Part shown: piece after piece, positions 1,524-10,205 of the stretch
How positions within the stretch are numbered: the first letter of the stretch is position 1
How the letters are laid out: each line of letters opens with the position of its first letter
Assembly: GCA_027596035.1 (NCBI GenBank)
Contig: JADGJA010000822.1
Location: 1 to 10,205 of the forward strand
Direction of reading: 5' to 3'
DNA from: Thoreauomyces humboldtii
Lineage: Eukaryota > Chytridiomycota > Chytridiomycetes > Spizellomycetales > Powellomycetaceae
Length of the DNA: 10,205 nt
Translations under genes and position numbers: made by a program
Notes under the pieces: model-generated
Databases searched by the model: none
Told to the model about the DNA's origin: nothing
Seen by the model: only the letters and a program-made list of their open reading frames with translations

Positions 1524-1582
1524 GCTGATCGAAGTTGCTCAGAAGTACTGGATCAGAGATAAATGCAGTAGTCACGTAGGGA

Positions 1583-1596
1583 CAGGGCTCATAACC
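1583..1596 (-). other. primer-binding site, complementary to tRNA-iMet anticodon arm
   Basis: On the minus strand the sequence reads GGTTATGAGCCCTG directly after a CA that fits an LTR end. Its complement, CAGGGCTCATAACC, matches the anticodon arm of the yeast initiator Met tRNA as I remember it, including the CAT anticodon. Drosophila copia and yeast Ty5 prime minus-strand DNA synthesis from this internal, half-tRNA site rather than from the tRNA 3' end. The site lies about 60 bases upstream of the gag ATG at 1523, the expected position. It marks the leftward element as copia-like. Confidence 0.6.
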
Positions 1597-1749
1597 TGTG
1601 AGCAGGACGGCGTAGCTGTGGGAACTGATAGACGAATGTATAGGTTGGTGAAGCTTACTCAACTAAGGGGGGAAGAGAGCCGAGGGGAAAGAAGACTATC
1701 TGAGGAGTGGCTGTGCTCCTGCTATGTGTGTCCGGGTACGCCGGACACA
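1597..1749 (-). repeat. putative short 5' LTR of the leftward element
   Basis: The left edge (TGTGAG on the plus strand) abuts the primer-binding site, so the minus-strand LTR would end in CTCACA. A matching end lies at 1749, where the plus strand ends CCGGACACA, so the minus-strand LTR would start TGTG and finish CACA. The interior is rich in pyrimidines on the minus strand (TTCCCCTCGG, CTCTTCCCCCC), as in many fungal LTRs. The partner 3' LTR lies outside the window, so the outer boundary is a guess. Confidence 0.35.
1727..1749. repeat. perfect 9-bp inverted repeat at the outer end of the putative LTR
   Basis: TGTGTCCGG (1727-1735), five bases GTACG, then CCGGACACA (1741-1749). The arms are perfect and could fold into a hairpin in RNA or single-stranded DNA. 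Confidence 0.75.
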
Positions 1750-1777
1750 GGCGCAGGTGAGACAACGGGTAGGATGA

Positions 1778-1923
1778 CCTACCCCCGCCGACAGAGGTCA
1801 CCCTTCGCTTCACCCTCCGACGGCGGCCCAGGCGACACAGCCTCATGAATATCTCCAACCAGCGATCAACCCATTTGAACCACATCTTGCTCCACCGTCG
1901 GTGCACCCAATGCACACCCGCAG
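1778..1923 (+). pseudogene. shifted N-terminal piece of the copia gag
   Basis: Upstream of the main gag-pol frame, the frame starting at 1778 is open and reads Pro/His-rich protein (PTAAQATQPHEYLQPAINPF, then EPHLAPPSVHPMHT) very like the composition of the following gag N-terminus. The main frame itself has TGA codons at 1846 and 1876. A change of frame between about 1905 and 1923 would join the two. Upstream of 1778 this frame has a TGA, so the true start, leader, primer-binding site and 5' LTR are not present or are unrecognisable. A GTGAGA at 1756 could instead be a splice donor. Confidence 0.4.
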
Positions 1924-4446
1924 GTGCCTCCCGCTCACGTCGGAGGTGGTTTCCCGCCGAACCATCCTGTCACGATCTACCCACCTTCCCCGTCCACGCA
2001 TGCTTATCCACCTCCGCAACCGACTATGGCAGCCACCGAAGTGTTCCCCGCTGCGGCAAGTGTATCGTCGGGCGCATCCGAGAAGCGCGTCAAGCGCCTT
2101 GAGAAGGGCATGAAAACGTACAATGGACGGGGCGAATACGTGAAACTCGAGAAGTACATTGAAGCGGTTGAGGACTGGGCGCTGTCGTCGGGCCTATCGC
2201 TGACCGATTACGCGGTAGTGCTGTTTGCAAAGGATCATCTCGACGGCAGCGCCTGGACGATCTGGAAGGAGCAGCGCCTCAGCTGCCGCAGTTGGGTTGA
2301 GCTTCGTCACATCCTTGAGGAATCGTTTGCGCCGAGCGCCGAACTGGAACGAGCTCGCCGTGACCTCCAGAACCTCGTTCAGAAGGGCACCGTCGCGACT
2401 TACAACCTCGAGTTCCGAGAAATCATGGTAAAAACGAACCACTCCACCGTCTCCAAACGCGACATGTACCTCGACGGCCTGAAAGCTCCGATCCATCAAG
2501 CCATATTTCTGGCGAAGCACCAACCACTGGAGACCCTTATGCGTTTGGCGGCTGAGGCCGACTCGCCTCGCGGAGTGCCGACCGGGAACGTCCCGGGTCT
2601 GGCAGCAACCGAGAATCCAGCACCAGCACCGCCGACGAAGCCTCGTCCGAAGGGCCGCGGCAACCCTCTTCCGCATCGCGGTCCGGTTCCTGAAAACTTC
2701 CGCTGCCGCATGTGCAAGGTTCGCGGGAAGCACTGGACGGAAGACTGTGCTATCTTCCGCGCCGCCAAGGCAAATATCCGATCGGTCGGCGCGGCCGCCG
2801 AAGCGCACTCCACTATCGACGCAAACGTTCCGTTTGCGCTAGCTGCGGACATGGACTCTCGAGACGCACTGGTGATCGACTCCGGCGCGTCTAGCATCAT
2901 GGTTATGCATGCACACTGGCTAACTAACCTTCGTCCCGACCCCCTCTCCCGACGCATCACGGTCGCTGCCAAGGAATCCGGGGACGGCATCGAGACCACC
3001 ATCCCTGTTGAGGGCCTCGGTACATTCACGTTCGACTTGGATGGGCCAGACGGACCCGTCTCACTGACCCGGCACGATGTCCTGTATTCGTCTCACCTGG
3101 CACGGAATCGGGTCGAGGTCCAGGCCCTCATCAAGGAGGACTACCAGCTCTCCTTTCACAAGGATTTATGTACCTTGTATGACCCGGCAGGCAGTCCCAT
3201 CGGGTACGGCGACCTTCTTGCCAACCGTCTCTGGCATCTGCGCGGCCAGGTTTGCCTCCCCGACGACTTCCAAGCCTTCCTGGGCAGTACGGCCCCGAGC
3301 GAGGACGGGTGGATTCACGATTACCGAAACTCTTTCTCCGCACTGGCCGCGGAGACCCGCTTTCGCGCACTCCGTCGTCCTGTAGTGCCCCCTCCAACTC
3401 GGACCACCTCGCTGACGCCGCCAATGTCGTCAGTCGCTGGGTCTGCACCGCCGGTTTCTGACGCTGCCGCCGATCAGACCGACGACCTCAGTTCGTCCTC
3501 CACGGATGTCGCGGTTGACGCTGCGCTTCCGTCCTTCACCGACGCCACCTTCGACGATGCCACCTTCGACGTCGCCACTCCGTCCTCTGCCCCTCTTTCC
3601 CTGGCTCTCCTCTGGCACCACCGTCTTGCGCACCGCGGCATTAATGCAACCAAAGCTCTGGTTCGCCAGCATCCGGAACTCCGTCCGATGGTGACCGCGG
3701 GTCATATCTCTTGCAAAGGCTGTCATCTCGCAAAGTCTGCTCGGAAACCTCATCCAGCGCGCGCGCTGGGCCCGGGACACCGTAGCACGCAGCCCTTCTA
3801 CCGAATCTATTCCGATGTGAGTGGCAAGCTTCCCGCGTCCTACCGCGGCTTTGAGTACTACATCGTCTTTGTCGACGACGCAACTCGGTGGTCCGCCGTA
3901 TATTTCCTGAAGCACAAGAGCGACACGTTCGAAGAGTTCCAACGGTTTCATGCTCTCGTCAAGACGAAGTATCAACGCGCCATTGTTGTTTTCCACGACG
4001 ATGAAGGAGGCGAGTACCATTCCCAGGAGTTTACCACGTATCGTCGCCAACACGGTATCTCACGAGAGATTACCACGACGGACACACCTCAGCAGAATGG
4101 CGTCCCCGAACGCCTCAACCGCGTGATTATGGAGGGCGTCCGCGCCTTCATGCACTCACAGAACATTCCGTCGCAACTCTGGGCTGAGCTCGTCAACACC
4201 ATGGTCTACCTTCGCAATCTCCTCCCGACCACGGCGAATCCTCAGAGCAAGTCGCCATACGAGCTTCTCCACGGTTACCCTCAATCAGTAGCTCATCTAC
4301 GCGTGATCTGGTGTCGCGCGTGGGCTCACATCAACGAGGACAAGCGTTCGAACAAGTTATCCCCCCGCGCTCGTGAGGTGCGTATGCTCGGGTACTCCTG
4401 GGAGAAGAAGGCGTATCGCGTCTGGGATGTCTCGGTCGTCAGGTGA
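1879..4446 (+). pseudogene. Ty1/copia Gag-protease-integrase polyprotein, broken at its 3' end
   Basis: An open frame of about 850 codons; the first in-frame ATG is at 2026 and upstream codons are also open back to a TGA at 1876. Order: a Pro-rich N-terminus; Gag capsid helices (about 2110-2560, KTYNGRGEYVKLEKYIEAVE); a CCHC-type zinc knuckle C-x2-C-x5-H-x4-C (2704-2748, spacing one longer than the usual x4); a protease with the active site DSGAS (2878-2892); an integrase zinc domain with HH/H and CxxC (3616-3723); and an integrase core with D (3814), D (4000) and E (4108), D-35-E spacing intact, followed by PxLWAEL-type sequence. Protease-integrase-RT order is the Ty1/copia signature. The frame ends SVVR-TGA while the coding sense continues one frame over at 4443 (VIETGDVDFDEG), so a one-base loss near 4441 broke the polyprotein. 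All visible catalytic residues to this point remain. Confidence 0.9.
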
Positions 4447-4907
4447 TCGAGACAGGCGATGTTGATTTCGACGAGGGAACAGCTCTTGCAACTACTCCCC
4501 TCGAACTCATCTCCCTGGACGATATGTGGTCCGTCGAAGCCATTGTTGACGAACGCCCTGCTGGAACCGGTTCGCCACCACAAGTCGAGTACCACGTCAA
4601 GTGGCTTGACGTTGACGAGTTTACGTGGGAACCACTCTCGGTGGTCAAGGACACGGCCGCCTTACGGATTTGGCGCGCTCGCCACAACCCGGTGGCGCTT
4701 CTGACTGCACTACGTGTTGCAACCTGCTCCTCCGTCCCGACATACTCGCCGTTATCATCAACCCCGACGGACTCACCAACTGACGAACTCGACTGCCTCG
4801 ACGGCCTCGACCGTCGAGACGGACTCGCCGTTATTGTCTACGCCATCTGCCCCATCCCAGATGAACCCGACGGCCTTGACTGTCGACGCCGACGGGTGCT
4901 CCGATGA
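4443..4907 (+). pseudogene. integrase C-terminal tail with chromodomain, frameshifted from gag-pol
   Basis: This frame overlaps the end of the previous one and carries on its sense: VIETGDVDFDEG is the usual copia 'RDVxFDE' segment after the integrase core. Residues 29-79 (4527-4679) form a chromodomain: WSVEAIVDER, a short loop, then YHVKWLDVDEFTWEPL and a terminal helix ALRIWRAR. The aromatic positions W (4527), W (4602) and W (4626) are those expected for a methyl-lysine cage fold. The domain would tether integration complexes to modified histones. After about 4700 the sequence is a low-complexity Thr/Ser/Asp linker and coding sense moves to another frame, so the stop at 4905 is not the natural end. 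The chromodomain call is strong. Its position between integrase and RT is unusual. Confidence 0.75.
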
Positions 4908-6634
4908 GAACTATTTTTTTGACCTTCGCCTCGACCAGCTCGCCGTCCTCGCTCCTCAACAATCCGTTGCTGGCGCTGGCCGCTGGCACTCTCCATCCGA
5001 CGACCCCTCAAACCATGCGCGAAGCGCTTGCGGGCCCCAATGCCGGCGAGTGGCAAGCCGCGCTGGACGTCGAGCTCGAGGCTCATCGAGTGAACAACAC
5101 CTGGATGCCCTGCGTCCTCCCCGCGGGGCAACGTACGGTAGGGTGCCGACCGGTACTCGTGGACAAGTACGCACTGGATGGTTCGATCCTCAAGCGAAAG
5201 GTACGCCTGGTTGCACAAGGGTTCAGCCAGCGCAACGGCGTGGACTACTGGAGCGATGAGGTGTATGCGCCCGTCGCTCAGGCGGAGTCCCTTCGCCTGG
5301 TTCTCGCCATTGCCACCGCACTGGACCTCGAAGTTGACCAGATGGACGTCACTACCGCATTCCTCAACTAATCGGTCGAGAAGGACCTCAAGGTCTACAT
5401 GCGGCTCCCGGACGGCTCCGTCGGTCTCCTCAACAAGAGCATTTACGGGCTGAAACAGTCGCCGCGTCTGTGGAACAAGGAGCTCGATGCCTTGCTCCGA
5501 CAGCAGTCCTTCGGTCTCTCCCCAACCGCGAGTGACCCGTGCGTCTACGTGTCCTGGAGCAATGGCGAACCTTCCTTTGTGGTCATCTACGTCGACGACA
5601 TCCTCATTGTGGGCAATCGCCGCCGCGTTGATGCTCTCAAAGCACTCTTATCGGCTCGGTTCAAGATGACCGACGGTGGCCCCGTCCACTACTTCCTCGG
5701 TATGCGTGTCACGCGTGACCGCACCCAGCGCACGCTGTCGCTCGACCAGTGTCATTACGTGGACCAACTCCTGCAGCGCTTCGGCATGTCCGATGCGAAG
5801 CCGAACGTGGTCCATCTCTCTCCCGATCACAAGCTGGAGCCTCTCCGTCCAGTTTCCGATGGCGAAACTCCCACAGCCGCGTCTCGCAAGGCCGACAAGA
5901 CCAAATACCAACGTCTCTGTGGCTCGGTCAACTGGCTGGTTACGATGACACGACCGGACGTCGCTACCCCGCTCAATATTCTAGGTGCCTTCCTCGCTGC
6001 TCCGTCGGAAGCCCACATGACGGCCGGAAAGGGCCTCCTTCGCTATGTCTCCGGGACTCGTCGTCATGCATTGATGTTCGATTTTTCTGAGTACAAGGAC
6101 ACGCCCCCCACTTCCCTTCGTGACCTCCTGGTTGGCTTCTGTGATGCCGATTGGGGTGGGGAGTTACATACCCGCCGCTCCACGACTGGTTTCCTGTTCT
6201 TCCTCGGCAAGTCACTGATCTCCTGGTGCGCCAAGCGCCAACGCACGGTCGCTCTCTCGTCGACCGAGGCGGAATATATGGCCATCACGCTGGCGGCCAG
6301 GGAAGCGGTCTGGCTTCGCGCGTTCGTCAGCCAACTTCTCTCCGATCCGGGCCTTCCGACCACTCCGTACTCAGCCACGGTCGTCTACGAGGACAATCAG
6401 TCCTGCATCGCTCTGGCGAAGAACGCTATCCATCACGCTCGCACCAAACACATCGATATCCGCCACCACTACATCCGAGAGGCGGTTGAGAACGGCATGA
6501 TCAGATTAGTCTACACTCCTACCAATGACATGGTGGCCGATGCAATGACCAAGCCCCTTCCGCGCCCCAAGCTGGAACGGTTTCGCACCAAGATGGGCCT
6601 TCACCGTCCATCGGTCGCTCCAGCTAGTCGTTAA
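4904..6634 (+). pseudogene. Ty1/copia reverse transcriptase-RNase H with one internal stop
   Basis: One frame from 4904 to a TAA at 6632, interrupted by a single TAA at 5369-5371. Before the stop are the RT N-terminal motifs (TMREALAGPNAGEW, LVAQGFSQRNGVDYW, QMDVTTAFLN). After it are VYMRLPDGSVGLLNKSIYGL, the catalytic YVDD (5588-5599), LSLDQCHYVDQLL and the RNase H domain with D in CDADW (6143), E in SSTEAEY (6266), D in VYEDNQ (6392) and the C-terminal ARTKHIDIRHHYIRE and DAMTKPL motifs. It copies genomic RNA to cDNA in virus-like particles. The stop sits in the conserved AFLN..-YM region where a sense codon is expected, so it looks like a recent point mutation. The remaining 411 codons are open and well conserved. 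The frame upstream (4700-4904) is not the same as that of the chromodomain piece. Confidence 0.9.
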
Positions 6635-6646
6635 CGACTCGACATT

Positions 6647-6817: not shown

Positions 6818-7020
6818 CACACATTGCATTATCGTATCCAGCTCGAGTCCACTCTCTCTTCTTCTCGTCTTCAGTACAGCCATTGAGTACGATAGTCTTA
6901 ATAGAGCGCCCGGCCTTTATACTTTGTGTGGGAGATGAGGGATTTTTGCAATCAGCTGCTCGGTCAGCTGTTTTTCTTTTTCTTCTGGCAGCGATAAGCT
7001 TGAGACATTGATACGGCCAG
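6818..7020. other. region between the copia LTR and the integrase-Ulp1 gene; no confident gene
   Basis: I see no conserved coding sequence here. It contains pyrimidine-rich stretches, a TTTATAC box near 6916, an ATG at 6935 opening only 20 codons, and a strong polypyrimidine tract ending in CAG at 6989-6991 that could be a splice acceptor. The real 5' part of the downstream gene (promoter, first exon) may lie here or may have been separated from it by the retrotransposon. Confidence 0.4.
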
Positions 7021-7276
7021 AAAAAGTTAGAGCCTCCCGAAGAGACAACGCCCCTGTCAGTGAGACAGGGCACATTAAAGGCTCAGTGCACATTCAGGGC
7101 TCCCGTGGCCGGTGCACGCCATGCCATACCGTCTGCGACCCTTACAATAGAGGTTTTGAAGAAGCTGTTCCCCCAACGAAGCCCAGAAACGCTCTACGTT
7201 TCCGGACCTGATCGCTGGTCTCACTGGTACACACTTGAACCCGACGATGATGGGCACTACCGTAATATCGCTCCCG
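7021..7276 (+). CDS. exon 1 (5' boundary uncertain) of the integrase-Ulp1 gene
   Basis: This frame is open from 7012 after a TGA at 7009 and ends at a GTAAGA donor at 7277. The end of the exon reads convincingly as protein (LYVSGPDRWSHWYTLE, then DGHYRNIAP). It has no ATG in frame. An acceptor-like CAG at 7018-7020 could start the exon. A second frame (6993-7211) is also open and contains a Cys/His cluster, RCTPCHTVC, so an additional intron or frameshift within 7020-7200 cannot be excluded. Confidence 0.5.
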
Positions 7277-10205
7277 GTAAGAGAATTCATCAAACAAAGG
7301 AAAACGCCGCGCGGAGTATTCATGTCAGACTCCAACTCAGGGAAGACTTACACCGTTCACGGGGATCTTGTCGCTTTGCCCAAGCCGGCACCGTTTTCCC
7401 TACCACCACTCACTGCGTGGGAACAGCGCAGGCTGAGGGAGTACCTGGAGGGGTGGCGCCTTGCTGGCGGATATGCGCAACACGGACCCAGAGCATACAA
7501 TGCAGGTCTCGACCGAAACCTGAAAAAAACCCTTCGGAACAAGGTATGTCGCATTCTCAGCCAAAGCCTATTGAACGAACAAGGAAACTGAAAACTTCGC
7601 ACGGCGTTTTGCCTTCCAGGCAAAGAAATGCAGCTGGAACAAAACGTTCACGGTTTTGACCTACAAGGAAGACACGAGCGATCGGCCGAGGCAGCTGCTC
7701 ACTTTGCAGGCTGAATTCGAGCAGGTCTTTAGCACATATCACATGTCCGACACGTACGGCTGTCACAGCAAGTTCGAACGGACTTGGCAAAAAGCTACCG
7801 AGCGCTTTCACTTGTACGGACTGAAGGGACTCATTCAGAGCCTCATTCGATGCTGCCCCTTGTGTGCACTGAGCACAGTAAAACTGGGCGTGACTCCATT
7901 GCAACTGATTCAAACGACTCGCCCAAACCAGATGGTGAGTGAGAAACTCAAAACTCCGCGCGGCGTTTCGTGCATTCCCTCTAAAATGTCTTACAGTTCC
8001 GGTGCTTCCAGTGGGTTACCGATTATACACATTTTGGGGTATACTGGATTCTCGCAGTTGTGGACCACTTCACTGGCTACACTTGGCACGCAGCTTTTGC
8101 CACCTGCGAGGCAGTCAGTGTTGAGGCCTTTCTTGAACAGCTGTTCACGAAAGCTGGGAAGCCGGGAGTCCTTCTTAGCAACAACGGCGTCGAGTTCTGC
8201 GCAAAGATTATTTGGCGGCTCTGTGAACTGTGGGAAGTCACGCACCGATTCGGTCTACCCTACAAACCGACCACCCAAGGATCGGTGGAGCGCTCGCATC
8301 AGGAATTCAAGAAGAAAACCTGGTCTCACTGGGTAGCGAAGCACGGCAAACGAGCTCAAGTCTCGCGGATGACGCTCGCCGAACTGAAACGCATCTGTCA
8401 GATTGTTGACAACGTGAATAACCACGAACAATCTTTGGTTTACAAGCGTACTCCGTACCAGGCTTATCATGGACGCACTGATCATCAATGGCGAACCAAC
8501 AACCTTCCTACGCCTTTGTTCGAAGAACACGTTATGAACAACAACGAGAAAGTTGCGATGTACGACAACATGGTCTGTCTCATCGCCATCAAAAAAGAAT
8601 ACGATGTCAAGCGAAGCATCCGAAACCTGGAGAACAAACGCGGCGCACCGCTCACCCTCCTGACCAAGGTGGAGCGGGTCTTGGTGGCGCACTTCAATCC
8701 TAGGAAGTGTCAACACGTCGCTGCCTGGGGCAAAGGTGGCGCCCCAAAAGGGCATCCTGGACTGTGTTGGGCGGGCCTTGCTGAGATTGTCACAAAGTTC
8801 ATCCTCCAACAAGCAAGGCTTGCGCGTCGGAGCCATCTTTCAAAATCCGCTGGGTTATGCAGCCCACCATTGCCGCCCGCTCTGTCGGGCAGATCGAGAA
8901 GAGACGCTATTCGCCCAGGAGATCCGAAAAACGCCGCGCGGAGTTTTGATATTCTCGCATCCTCATTCTCGTTATTTTGCCAGACACCTGGTCCGCCCGC
9001 CAGAGGGTCTTGACTTGGATGCGGTCCGGGATCTGATAAACCATGAAGCTGACCTCATGGAAGTCCTGGATGTGCAGTACGCGTTTGCCAAAAGATTTTG
9101 GCTGGACGATGTGTCAGAGCCTGTCAAGGACGCCAAAGAGCAACATATCTTTGAGGTCTTGGTGGTGTTAGCGGGCTGCCCACCGGAAGCAGCAATATGG
9201 GTTGCGACAACCCATATCTCCGATGAGATCGCCGAAGTCTGGGAAAGTCTGCCAGATCTTTCTGAATCCACGGACAAGAGCGTCAACGAGCTTCTGGAGG
9301 TTCTAGCACCAGGCAAAGCCAAGGCTCCCAAGTTTGAAGCTGGATTGGAAGCACTCTGTCCCGAGAGCATTCACATTCTCCCGGGTTATGACATCAAACT
9401 GGAAGCTGACAAGTCGGTCCCAGAAGAACTGTTTACGTCCCCGTTCCATCCAGAGGTGCTCACTCCGCCCTCCACATTACCTTCCCCGCCGCCAGCTTCC
9501 AAGCAATTACATGAAATGACTCAGAGCAAAGCTCTTGATGCGCCTCGCCATATGGTGCGACCGCTCATTCTAAACCCAATGAAAGGAAGAGCGAAGGTTA
9601 CGAAGCCCCAACAGGCAGAAAACTCTAAACTCCGCGCGGCGTTTTCGCATTCTTACGCTTTGTGCCTCCCAGTTCCCCAATTCGAAAAAGCTTGCCAGGG
9701 AGAAGAGCTTGACTGCAACCAAAAAAGCAGCTGCGGACCTGACGCCCTTGGCTCTACCTTCACTGCGCAGTCTCGTCCCAGTGTCCTTGCCGCTTGTTCT
9801 CTACAGTGATCTTGCGCAATCCGACCGCCTTGATGAAATCGCCTCACTACGTCCAGGCCAGGAGGTTTCCGCAGAGGTCATCTTGAACCGGCTGTTCCTA
9901 TGGTCCCGGTTGCTCAACTTGCGTTCTTTAATCTACGTGCTTGAACCCAACCTTCCGTCCAGTAAGCACTTGTCTCCGCAGACCTTTCGTGCGTTGAAAG
10001 TGCCATGCGGCGTTTTTGACTTCACTTTATCTTTAGCGCAAGGGCTGCTGGATCATCACGCTCAATTTGAGATGTTGGCCGCTCGAGAAGCAACTCATGT
10101 GGTCTACGTACCGAGCTCAGGGACGGCGTCCCCTGGCACAGGTGGACATTGGAAGTGTCTTGTGTGGGATGTGCATCGCGATCTCATGATCATATGTGAC
10201 TCCTT
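7021..10205 (+). CDS. spliced gene: integrase-like (D-N-E) plus Ulp1-type cysteine protease, partial
   Basis: No single ORF covers this region, but joining exons <7021-7276, 7341-7543, 7620-7934, 7997-about 8883, 8984-9596, 9673-9961 and 10037->10205 gives one continuous frame. Five of the six junctions have clear GT...AG ends and restore the frame exactly. The product has an N-terminal region without a recognised fold, an HHCC-like zinc-binding segment (exon 3), a retroviral-type integrase core (exon 4), a long acidic then Pro-rich linker (exon 5) and the start of a Ulp1/C48 protease (exons 6-7). The catalytic Cys would lie beyond the window. Integrase plus Ulp1-like protease is known from Ginger-type and Polinton/Maverick DNA transposons, in the latter as separate genes. 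The second catalytic Asp of the integrase is Asn, which argues for a domesticated or inactive enzyme. No in-frame ATG exists in exon 1, so the 5' end is unresolved. Confidence 0.75.
7277..7340 (+). other. intron 1 (64 nt)
   Basis: GTAAGA donor and CTCAG acceptor. The split codon g|gg gives Gly and restores the frame. An upstream CAG at 7326-7328 is also in phase. A copy of the shared palindrome lies at 7301-7320. Confidence 0.7.
7301..7320 (-). repeat. intronic near-palindrome copy 1
   Basis: AAAACGCCGCGCGGAGTATT. Orientation is opposite to copies 3 and 5. One base differs from copy 4. Confidence 0.85.
7341..7543 (+). CDS. exon 2 of the integrase-Ulp1 gene
   Basis: It begins with two bases that complete a Gly codon split by intron 1, then reads KTYTVHGDLVALPKPAPF and LTAWEQRRLREYLEGWRLAG, and ends in LRNK at a codon boundary before GTATGT (7544). 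The segment has no recognised domain. It is rich in Arg and Leu near the end and may be helical. If the alternative acceptor at 7328 is used, four residues (DSNS) are added without changing the frame. Confidence 0.65.
7544..7619 (+). other. intron 2 (76 nt)
   Basis: GTATGT donor, TTCCAG acceptor, phase 0. It contains the palindrome at 7591-7610, only 9 bases before the acceptor, so the branch point probably lies upstream (CTGAA near 7588). Confidence 0.75.
7591..7610 (+). repeat. intronic near-palindrome copy 2
   Basis: AAAACTTCGCACGGCGTTTT, 18 of 20 bases as in the consensus AAAACTCCGCGCGGCGTTTT. Confidence 0.8.
7620..7934 (+). CDS. exon 3: integrase zinc-binding (HHCC-like) region
   Basis: The exon starts at a codon boundary after CCAG (7617-7619). 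A later AG at 7633 would break the frame. Residues include AEFEQVFSTYHMSDTYGCHS, then ERTWQKATERFHLYGLKGL and IRCCPLC. This fits the integrase H2C2 zinc-binding pattern, in which two His precede a helix, a Tyr/His-containing second helix and a C-x2-C, directly upstream of the integrase core. The family normally uses it for multimerisation and end binding. The His spacing here (x7) is wider than usual. Confidence 0.65.
7935..7996 (+). other. intron 3 (62 nt)
   Basis: GTGAGT donor and TTACAG acceptor, phase 0. It joins the zinc-binding exon to the integrase core in a new frame. CTAAA near 7981 is a possible branch site. The palindrome is at 7950-7969. Confidence 0.85.
7950..7969 (+). repeat. 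intronic near-palindrome copy 3
   Basis: AAAACTCCGCGCGGCGTTTC, 19 of 20 bases as in the consensus. Confidence 0.85.
7997..8883 (+). CDS. exon 4: retroviral-type integrase core with D-N-E active site
   Basis: It opens in FRCFQWVTDYTHFG, where the Asp at 8021 is the first catalytic residue, then LAVVDHFTGYTW. The second catalytic position, normally SDNGxEF, reads SNNGVEF with Asn at 8180. The Glu is in QGSVERSHQEFKKK at 8288. Spacings are 52 and 35 residues, matching the retroviral DDE fold, so the Asn is exactly at the missing Asp position. After the core, sequence such as VYKRTPYQAYHGR matches the 'tP.e..fG' region of integrases. Up to about 8700 the frame is secure. From 8736 to 8883 all three frames are open for long stretches, and the 3' end of the exon is not settled: the donor could be at 8884, 8854, or an extra intron could remove 8736-8785 or 8736-8797. 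Confidence 0.75.
8884..8983 (+). other. intron 4 (donor uncertain)
   Basis: The acceptor TTTTGCCAG at 8983 is convincing. The only GT within 50 bases upstream of the palindrome is a weak GTCGGG at 8884. GTTATG at 8854 is the other in-phase choice. The palindrome is at 8928-8947. Confidence 0.4.
8928..8947 (-). repeat. intronic near-palindrome copy 4
   Basis: AAAACGCCGCGCGGAGTTTT, the exact reverse complement of the consensus. Confidence 0.85.
8984..9596 (+). CDS. exon 5: linker between integrase and protease domains
   Basis: It starts after TTTTGCCAG and reads in one frame to the donor at 9597. The first 100 residues look globular and helical (LDLDAVRDLINHEADLMEVL, then EIAEVWESLPDL), with many acidic residues. 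The last 60 are Pro-rich (TPPSTLPSPPPASKQL) and probably disordered. I recognise no family. A donor at 9555 (GTGCGA) is also in phase and would drop 14 residues. Confidence 0.6.
9597..9672 (+). other. intron 5 (76 nt)
   Basis: GTTACG donor (weak), TGCCTCCCAG acceptor with a CTTAC branch-like motif near 9651, phase 0. The alternative donor at 9555 is also in phase. The palindrome is at 9626-9645. Confidence 0.6.
9626..9645 (+). repeat. intronic near-palindrome copy 5
   Basis: TAAACTCCGCGCGGCGTTTT, 19 of 20 bases as in the consensus. Confidence 0.85.
9673..9961 (+). CDS. exon 6: start of Ulp1/C48-type protease domain
   Basis: It is read in a different frame from exon 5 and restored by intron 5. 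After a Lys/Ala-rich stretch it reads DEIASLRPGQEVSAEVILNR and LFLWSRLLNLRSLIYVLEP. This is the Ulp1 entry pattern, in which 'L.pg.WLnD..I' is followed by a helix and a hydrophobic strand, although the usual WLND is replaced by EVSAE. It ends one base into a codon completed by exon 7. Confidence 0.6.
9962..10036 (+). other. intron 6 (75 nt)
   Basis: GTAAGC donor and ATCTTTAG acceptor. The split codon a|cg gives Thr and restores the frame across the protease domain. A diverged palindrome copy is at 9997-10016. Confidence 0.75.
9997..10016 (+). repeat. intronic near-palindrome copy 6 (diverged)
   Basis: AAAGTGCCATGCGGCGTTTT, 15 of 20 bases as in the consensus. The right half (GCGGCGTTTT) is intact. 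Confidence 0.65.
10037..10205 (+). CDS. exon 7: Ulp1-type protease catalytic His and Asp, cut by window end
   Basis: It follows CTTTAG and reads GLLDHHAQFEMLAAREATHV, then GGHWKCLVWD and LMIICDS. The His (10147) and Asp (10198) are 17 residues apart, the same spacing as His514 and Asp531 of yeast Ulp1, in the family pattern HW.L.v......i.i.DS. These enzymes cleave SUMO-type or polyprotein Gly-Gly bonds. The nucleophile Cys, some 50 residues later in Ulp1, is outside the window. Confidence 0.7.

Follow-up and report, generated by a model that had tools for sequence, protein, structure and literature searches.

The transposase of Ginger1 DNA transposons is a single protein in which an Ulp1-like domain comes after an H2C2 finger and an integrase core (Bao et al. 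2010, PMC2836005). The sections of that description used here report a C-terminal Ulp1 or OTU domain, a 4-bp duplication of CCGG or CCGT/ACGG, ends that begin TGTNR, and 1 to 4 introns in some elements, one of them a GC-AG intron; Ginger1 was described there from four animals, with a single transposase per element and no second gene (PMC2836005). YPYY and GPY/F motifs also characterize Ginger1. Here we examine a 10,205-base stretch of the chytrid Thoreauomyces humboldtii (Spizellomycetales; contig JADGJA010000822.1; hereafter the window), which carries an integrase-Ulp1 transposase gene whose predicted introns each hold a copy of the same 20-bp near-palindrome. Like Ginger1, the window gene has an H2C2 finger and rve core, here followed by a putative Ulp1-like end, and its predicted introns include a GC-AG intron, whereas palindromes and ParB go unmentioned in PMC2836005 and the elements in the sections used have no counterpart to the second gene discussed below.

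Short repeated transposase sites occur in other DNA transposons as well. The ends of piggyBac contain palindromes of 19 bp, and a dimer of the transposase binds a palindrome of this kind; in piggyBac and piggyBat an extra site can restrict activity, although their palindromes lie in the ends and not in introns (PMC11707139, in the parts used here). Likewise, the P element has internal 10-bp transposase sites, 11-bp inverted repeats and regulated intron splicing, yet its sites lie near the ends and form no intron series in the parts of PMC7776569 drawn upon. Introners (PMC9860276) and symmetrical stwintrons (PMC8469720) resemble the present case in placing repeated, sometimes symmetrical sequence in fungal introns, but as far as the sections used go they are whole intron copies across many genes, whereas here about 20 bp recur in one transposon family. 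Compared with known repeated internal sites of DNA transposons, the arrangement described below is unusual in its intronic position and in the switch of version between related elements. The piggyBac transposase is presumably unrelated to the integrase-Ulp1 transposase. Among the literature matches listed (titles and abstract openings, with subscription papers mostly outside), none concerned intronic palindromes in a DNA transposon or Ginger1-like elements of chytrids. From sequence comparison, we favor the reading that the palindromes are binding sites for an element-encoded protein, kept in the non-coding DNA of a Ginger1-like DNA transposon, with a probability of roughly 0.55.

Version 1 of the palindrome in the window gene

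The near-palindrome AAAACTCCGCGCGGCGTTTT (version 1) was found in five copies with ≤2 mismatches and a decayed sixth at 9997 (5 mismatches), all of them intronic (Table 1). A preliminary description of this locus had placed one copy at each of these six positions and none in exons or in about 7 kb of retroelement DNA, and both statements stand, as no further copy was detected in the window at ≤6 mismatches. None of 200 shuffles yielded a match at ≤3 mismatches, and simple arithmetic gives an expectation of 3e-5 for copies at ≤2 mismatches in the window, so that the first five copies far exceed chance. The sixth copy is weak, with an expectation of 0.0004 in an intron of its length and 0.08 in the window. 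The 8-bp core CCGCGCGG taken alone is not special (11 window matches at ≤1 mismatch vs 7.8 expected; 350 sites in the searched genome vs 287 for the reversed word). Elsewhere in the searched genome (20.67 Mb, possibly without short contigs), version 1 occurs at three places vs 1.2 expected, with 3 matches for the reversed control, and two of these three places are on contigs that resemble each other by eye. As a side observation, C597 (L023) and C601 (L024) look alike by eye, have a lower guanine-cytosine content (~44%), are unlike the other sampled stretches, and hold what appears to be a chance palindrome match within an open frame.

Palindromes in general are common: the same scan criterion gives 23 for the window and between 1 and 15 for each other stretch. 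Across the window and 24 further loci, a palindrome repeated at least 3 times was present in 8 of 25 stretches; four of the eight are the elements studied here (window, L022 on C575, L042 and L043), and the remaining four (L029, L034, L037 and L041) repeat different palindromes. In L037 we also noted a palindrome-like word, GCATCTGCTGCAGTTGC, 8 times in 10 kb (at 7602 and seven other places), perhaps a coding repeat. Searches of the literature for motif fragments, of phage records, and of viral_contigs with the exon 4 protein returned no match. An 18-mer pattern matched viral_contigs 5 times and a 20-mer pattern matched bacterial genome_contigs 7 times, and these matches were given no weight. 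Reading the motif as a conserved peptide (KTPRGVF and similar, in several frames) was dropped, since P0001, a T. humboldtii protein, does not contain it where the intron 4 copy lies. The observed palindrome pattern is real and not an artefact.

The window gene matched Integrase_H2C2 (3.3e-7) and rve (2.7e-11) in Pfam, both beyond the curated cut-off, and its frame is broken between 8791 and 8794. Its Ulp1-like end was recognized by similarity to a diverged paralogue on contig C575 (42% over 55 residues), and the C575 end itself scored below the cut-off for Peptidase_C48 (E 0.054; 13.8 bits vs 20.7). Protein searches gave three T. humboldtii proteins (P0001, P0002 and P0003), of which P0001 shares 86-88% identity with parts of the window gene. 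The six predicted introns span 58-76 nt, each with a copy; the borders first proposed for introns 4 and 5, whose donors are non-canonical in the window copy, were corrected by P0001 to those in Table 1. Frame restoration, offered at first together with splice consensus as the basis for the introns, fails for intron 6, which is frame-neutral and open and so not provable in this way; its support comes from C575.

Table 1. Features of the window (palindrome mismatches are counted against the consensus)
Feature	Position	Strand	Mismatches or borders	Remarks
Palindrome copy 1	7301..7320	-	1 mismatch	intron 1
Palindrome copy 2	7591..7610	+	2 mismatches	intron 2
Palindrome copy 3	7950..7969	+	1 mismatch	intron 3
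Palindrome copy 4	8928..8947	-	0 mismatches	intron 4
Palindrome copy 5	9626..9645	+	1 mismatch	intron 5
Palindrome copy 6, decayed	9997..10016	+	5 mismatches	intron 6
Predicted intron 1	7277-7340		GT..AG	frame and splice consensus only
Predicted intron 2	7544-7619		GT..AG	frame restored; C575 intron probably at matching place
Predicted intron 3	7935-7996		GT..AG	C575 intron at same place, without palindrome
Predicted intron 4	8919-8983		GA..AG	P0001 reads straight across; C575 counterpart holds version 2
Predicted intron 5	9615-9672		GC..AG	frame; P0001 coding (KVTKPRQ) up to donor, to 9614
Predicted intron 6	9962-10036		GT..AG	C575 intron at same place, sharing GTAAGCAC and CTTTAG
Integrase-Ulp1 transposase gene	7012..10205	+		cut by contig end; 7012 is the open-frame start, not a proven gene start
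Copia-type retroelement	1879..6640	+		RVT_2, gag_pre-integrs and others; upstream of gene; no motif copy

Version 2, the second gene and a shared end

The paralogue C575 is 41-43% identical to the window gene in exons 3, 4 and 7 and 29% identical in exon 5, with no significant match to exons 1, 2 and 6. Its introns lie at places matching window introns 3, 4 and 6, and probably 2, yet its near-palindrome differs: AAAATTCCGACTCGGAAATTTT (version 2), with three copies spread over 2 of its 5 introns. The counterpart of window intron 4 holds one version 2 copy and that of intron 6 holds two, whereas the C575 introns at the place of window intron 3, and probably 2, hold none. The two versions are laid out alike (A-tract, TCCG, 2-3 letters, CGG, 2-3 letters, T-tract), and each is fairly uniform inside its element.

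A second gene is carried by C548 and C711, and it too is accompanied by version 2. When C575, C548, C711, C676 and the window were searched at ≤6 mismatches, 13 version 2 copies were recovered: 3 in C575 introns, 3 in C548 introns (in 2 of the 6 introns of that gene), 2 upstream of the C548 gene and 5 upstream of the C711 gene, with a spacing of 71-72 bp in the upstream arrays apart from one gap of 86. Outside C575, C548 and C711, version 2 matched at 10 places vs 14 expected (reversed control, 1 match). Inside the three genes (window, C575 and C548) all sites are intronic (12/12), although introns make up 8-10% of the possible starts; the naive p of 3e-13 comes from copies that are non-independent and from gene limits set by the analyst. 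Neither version was found in a called exon, and 7 further sites lie in the upstream arrays. The distribution of the sites thus follows the element and neither the host nor introns in general. The initial wording of a copy in every intron is accurate for the window gene, while the related genes show 2/5 (C575) and 2/6 (C548). Similarly, the best fit among the three meanings first suggested is the DNA-binding site that persists in introns alone, but the restriction has to be to the non-coding DNA of this transposon family and not to introns, because version 2 also occurs in the upstream arrays.

The scanned pieces of the C548 gene gave no significant Pfam match. Its best PDB match, "Free serine kinase", was not significant (E 0.78), with a weak resemblance to a ParB-like motif; we take the matched protein to have a ParB fold. 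P0003 is 98% identical to C711 over residues 123-246 and 55% identical over its first part, where the alignment is gapped and crosses introns. By eye, C711 also shows a start codon with a possible splice donor behind it, in the opposite orientation, upstream of the array. At the second gene's end in L042 (3349-3458), we noted a 55-bp tandem duplication.

A sequence of ~98 to 173 bp is shared by C575, C676 and C548, downstream of the integrase-Ulp1 gene in the first two and of the second gene in C548, with 76-88% identity to C548. It terminates with CGTGACA or TGTGACA in C548 and C575, and the C676 match stops earlier. End fragments were also present at C131, C408 and C464 and, in diverged form, at C118. 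Read inward, the end gives TGTCA in C548, C575, C408, C131 and C464, with C676 missing the last part, and the adjoining letters, visible at a single end, are AGGT, CCGC, GAGC, ACTT and AGGG, none of them CCGG, CCGT or ACGG. All three gene-linked copies (C548, C575 and C676) hold the exact 11-nt half-site GTCGGAATTTT, which was not present in the C131, C464 and C19 stretches; when the C548 end was shuffled, any of four half-sites turned up in 7 of 20,000 cases. The shared end is the same in outward reading from both genes, which would fit the terminal inverted repeats of a single two-gene element with outward-facing genes, and both genes probably belong to one element.

These comparisons bear on the proposal that one intron was duplicated, or its sequence spread by gene conversion, with the palindrome as a remnant. 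Introns 2, 3 and 5 do share a few extra letters beside the palindrome, but copies 1 and 4 are inverted, and the proposal leaves the upstream arrays, the end half-site and the second version at matching places unexplained; the occurrence of version 2 in C575 largely refutes it, and we consider it very improbable.

Possible binding sites, insertions or hairpins

We interpret the palindrome as a double-stranded DNA site read by a protein of the element, because copies are alike within an element and change between elements, occur in both orientations, keep to non-coding DNA and include a half-site at the end. A dimeric DNA-binding protein of the element, encoded either by the integrase-Ulp1 transposase gene or by the second gene, would bind the palindrome, and its sites would be placed clear of coding sequence, as half-sites close to the ends, as an array ahead of the second gene, and as further sites in the introns of both genes. 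Binding might help to bring the ends together, limit activity or act as a switch on promoters of the element itself. As the specificity of the protein drifted, the copies within one element would change together, leaving one version per lineage.

Alternatively, short palindromic insertion elements, introner-like or resembling miniature inverted-repeat transposable elements, could have colonised these transposons, both in introns and in upstream DNA. The copies in both orientations would suit such elements, as would CCAG directly before intron 4 and at its end, which a target duplication might leave. The intron flanks are also relevant here. The introns had been called unlike outside the palindrome, which is so for one flank (41 vs a shuffle mean of 39.5, p = 0.40), whereas the 10 nt on the other side, aligned in palindrome orientation, agree beyond shuffles (57 vs 37.8, p = 0.0014); in gene orientation the same side scores 51, so orientation adds little. 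Intron length favors insertion in part, in that the site-bearing introns of C548 are the longer ones and the two-copy intron of C575 is its longest (111 nt), but lengths elsewhere do not follow (every window intron has a copy, and in C575 the one-copy intron of 77 nt compares with 65, 87 and 91 nt in those without). Moreover, the rest of the 20.67 Mb is at chance level for both versions, and introns at matching places in the paralogue exist without a copy, two results that weaken the introner meaning first suggested. Near-identical whole introns in many host genes, as expected of introners, were not found in the searched genome; matches elsewhere are at chance level and ~20 bp are held in common. 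We regard insertion elements as an unlikely source of the palindromes.

We also considered an RNA hairpin in the intron that would aid splicing or maintain control of the gene through splicing. The palindrome forms the predicted hairpin in window introns 1, 4 and 6, but not in introns 2, 3 and 5. Folded against shuffles, all 6 window introns gave z between -1.17 and +1.88, and the two site-bearing C548 introns gave -4.76 (2230-2314, with two copies) and +1.18, such that one intron favors a hairpin and fold excess is absent in 7 of 8. Some introns lack copies altogether, and copies are also found upstream of the likely start codon, where an intron in the 5' untranslated region is possible. A splicing hairpin, one of the meanings first put forward, is thus disfavored because 7 of 8 introns show no fold excess and copies occur in both orientations, and we rate it as quite unlikely.

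Several observations weigh against binding sites for an element protein. The ends of the window element lie off the contig, leaving introns as the sole known location of version 1; no more than two versions have been seen; and introns with and without sites coexist, so that intron sites are not needed everywhere. Insertion or partial duplication is also compatible with the similarity of the flanks in the window, and the lengths of C548 introns with sites (85 and 85 nt) and without (47, 66, 73 and 74 nt) fit insertion. By eye, a C548 exon holds a shorter stretch, TCCGACTCGGA, at 3121-3131. Lastly, no contig was seen with both ends, and the shared end is not provable as a terminal inverted repeat.

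By analogy with plasmids bearing parS, which ParB marks, the binding-site reading can be carried further. A two-gene Ginger1-like element might keep introns in both genes as non-coding space for lineage-specific palindromes, and its own ParB-like second protein might bind the ends, the central promoter and the introns to mark, pair or count copies; protein and sites would then co-evolve, and sister elements would ignore each other. This is speculative, and we hold it to be improbable in this full form.

Neighboring elements and implications

The window and C575 integrase-Ulp1 genes each have a Copia-type element directly upstream, oriented as the gene is (for C575, judged by eye from the translation), an adjacency that may reflect target preference or chance. 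In addition, the first 200 bases of C676 (L045) resemble, by eye, the reverse complement of window positions 1580-1800, and the same sequence, which is like a long terminal repeat, is seemingly inserted in this third integrase-Ulp1 gene.

In DNA transposons, the known binding sites are those of the ends. If the palindromes in the transposase introns are indeed a lineage-specific set of sites for a protein of the element, a selfish element can keep introns as cis-acting DNA space, and the specificity of its ends could be read from intron sequence. The system would then offer a ready test of co-evolution between transposase and site, and would widen the range of Ginger1-like elements to include a chytrid.

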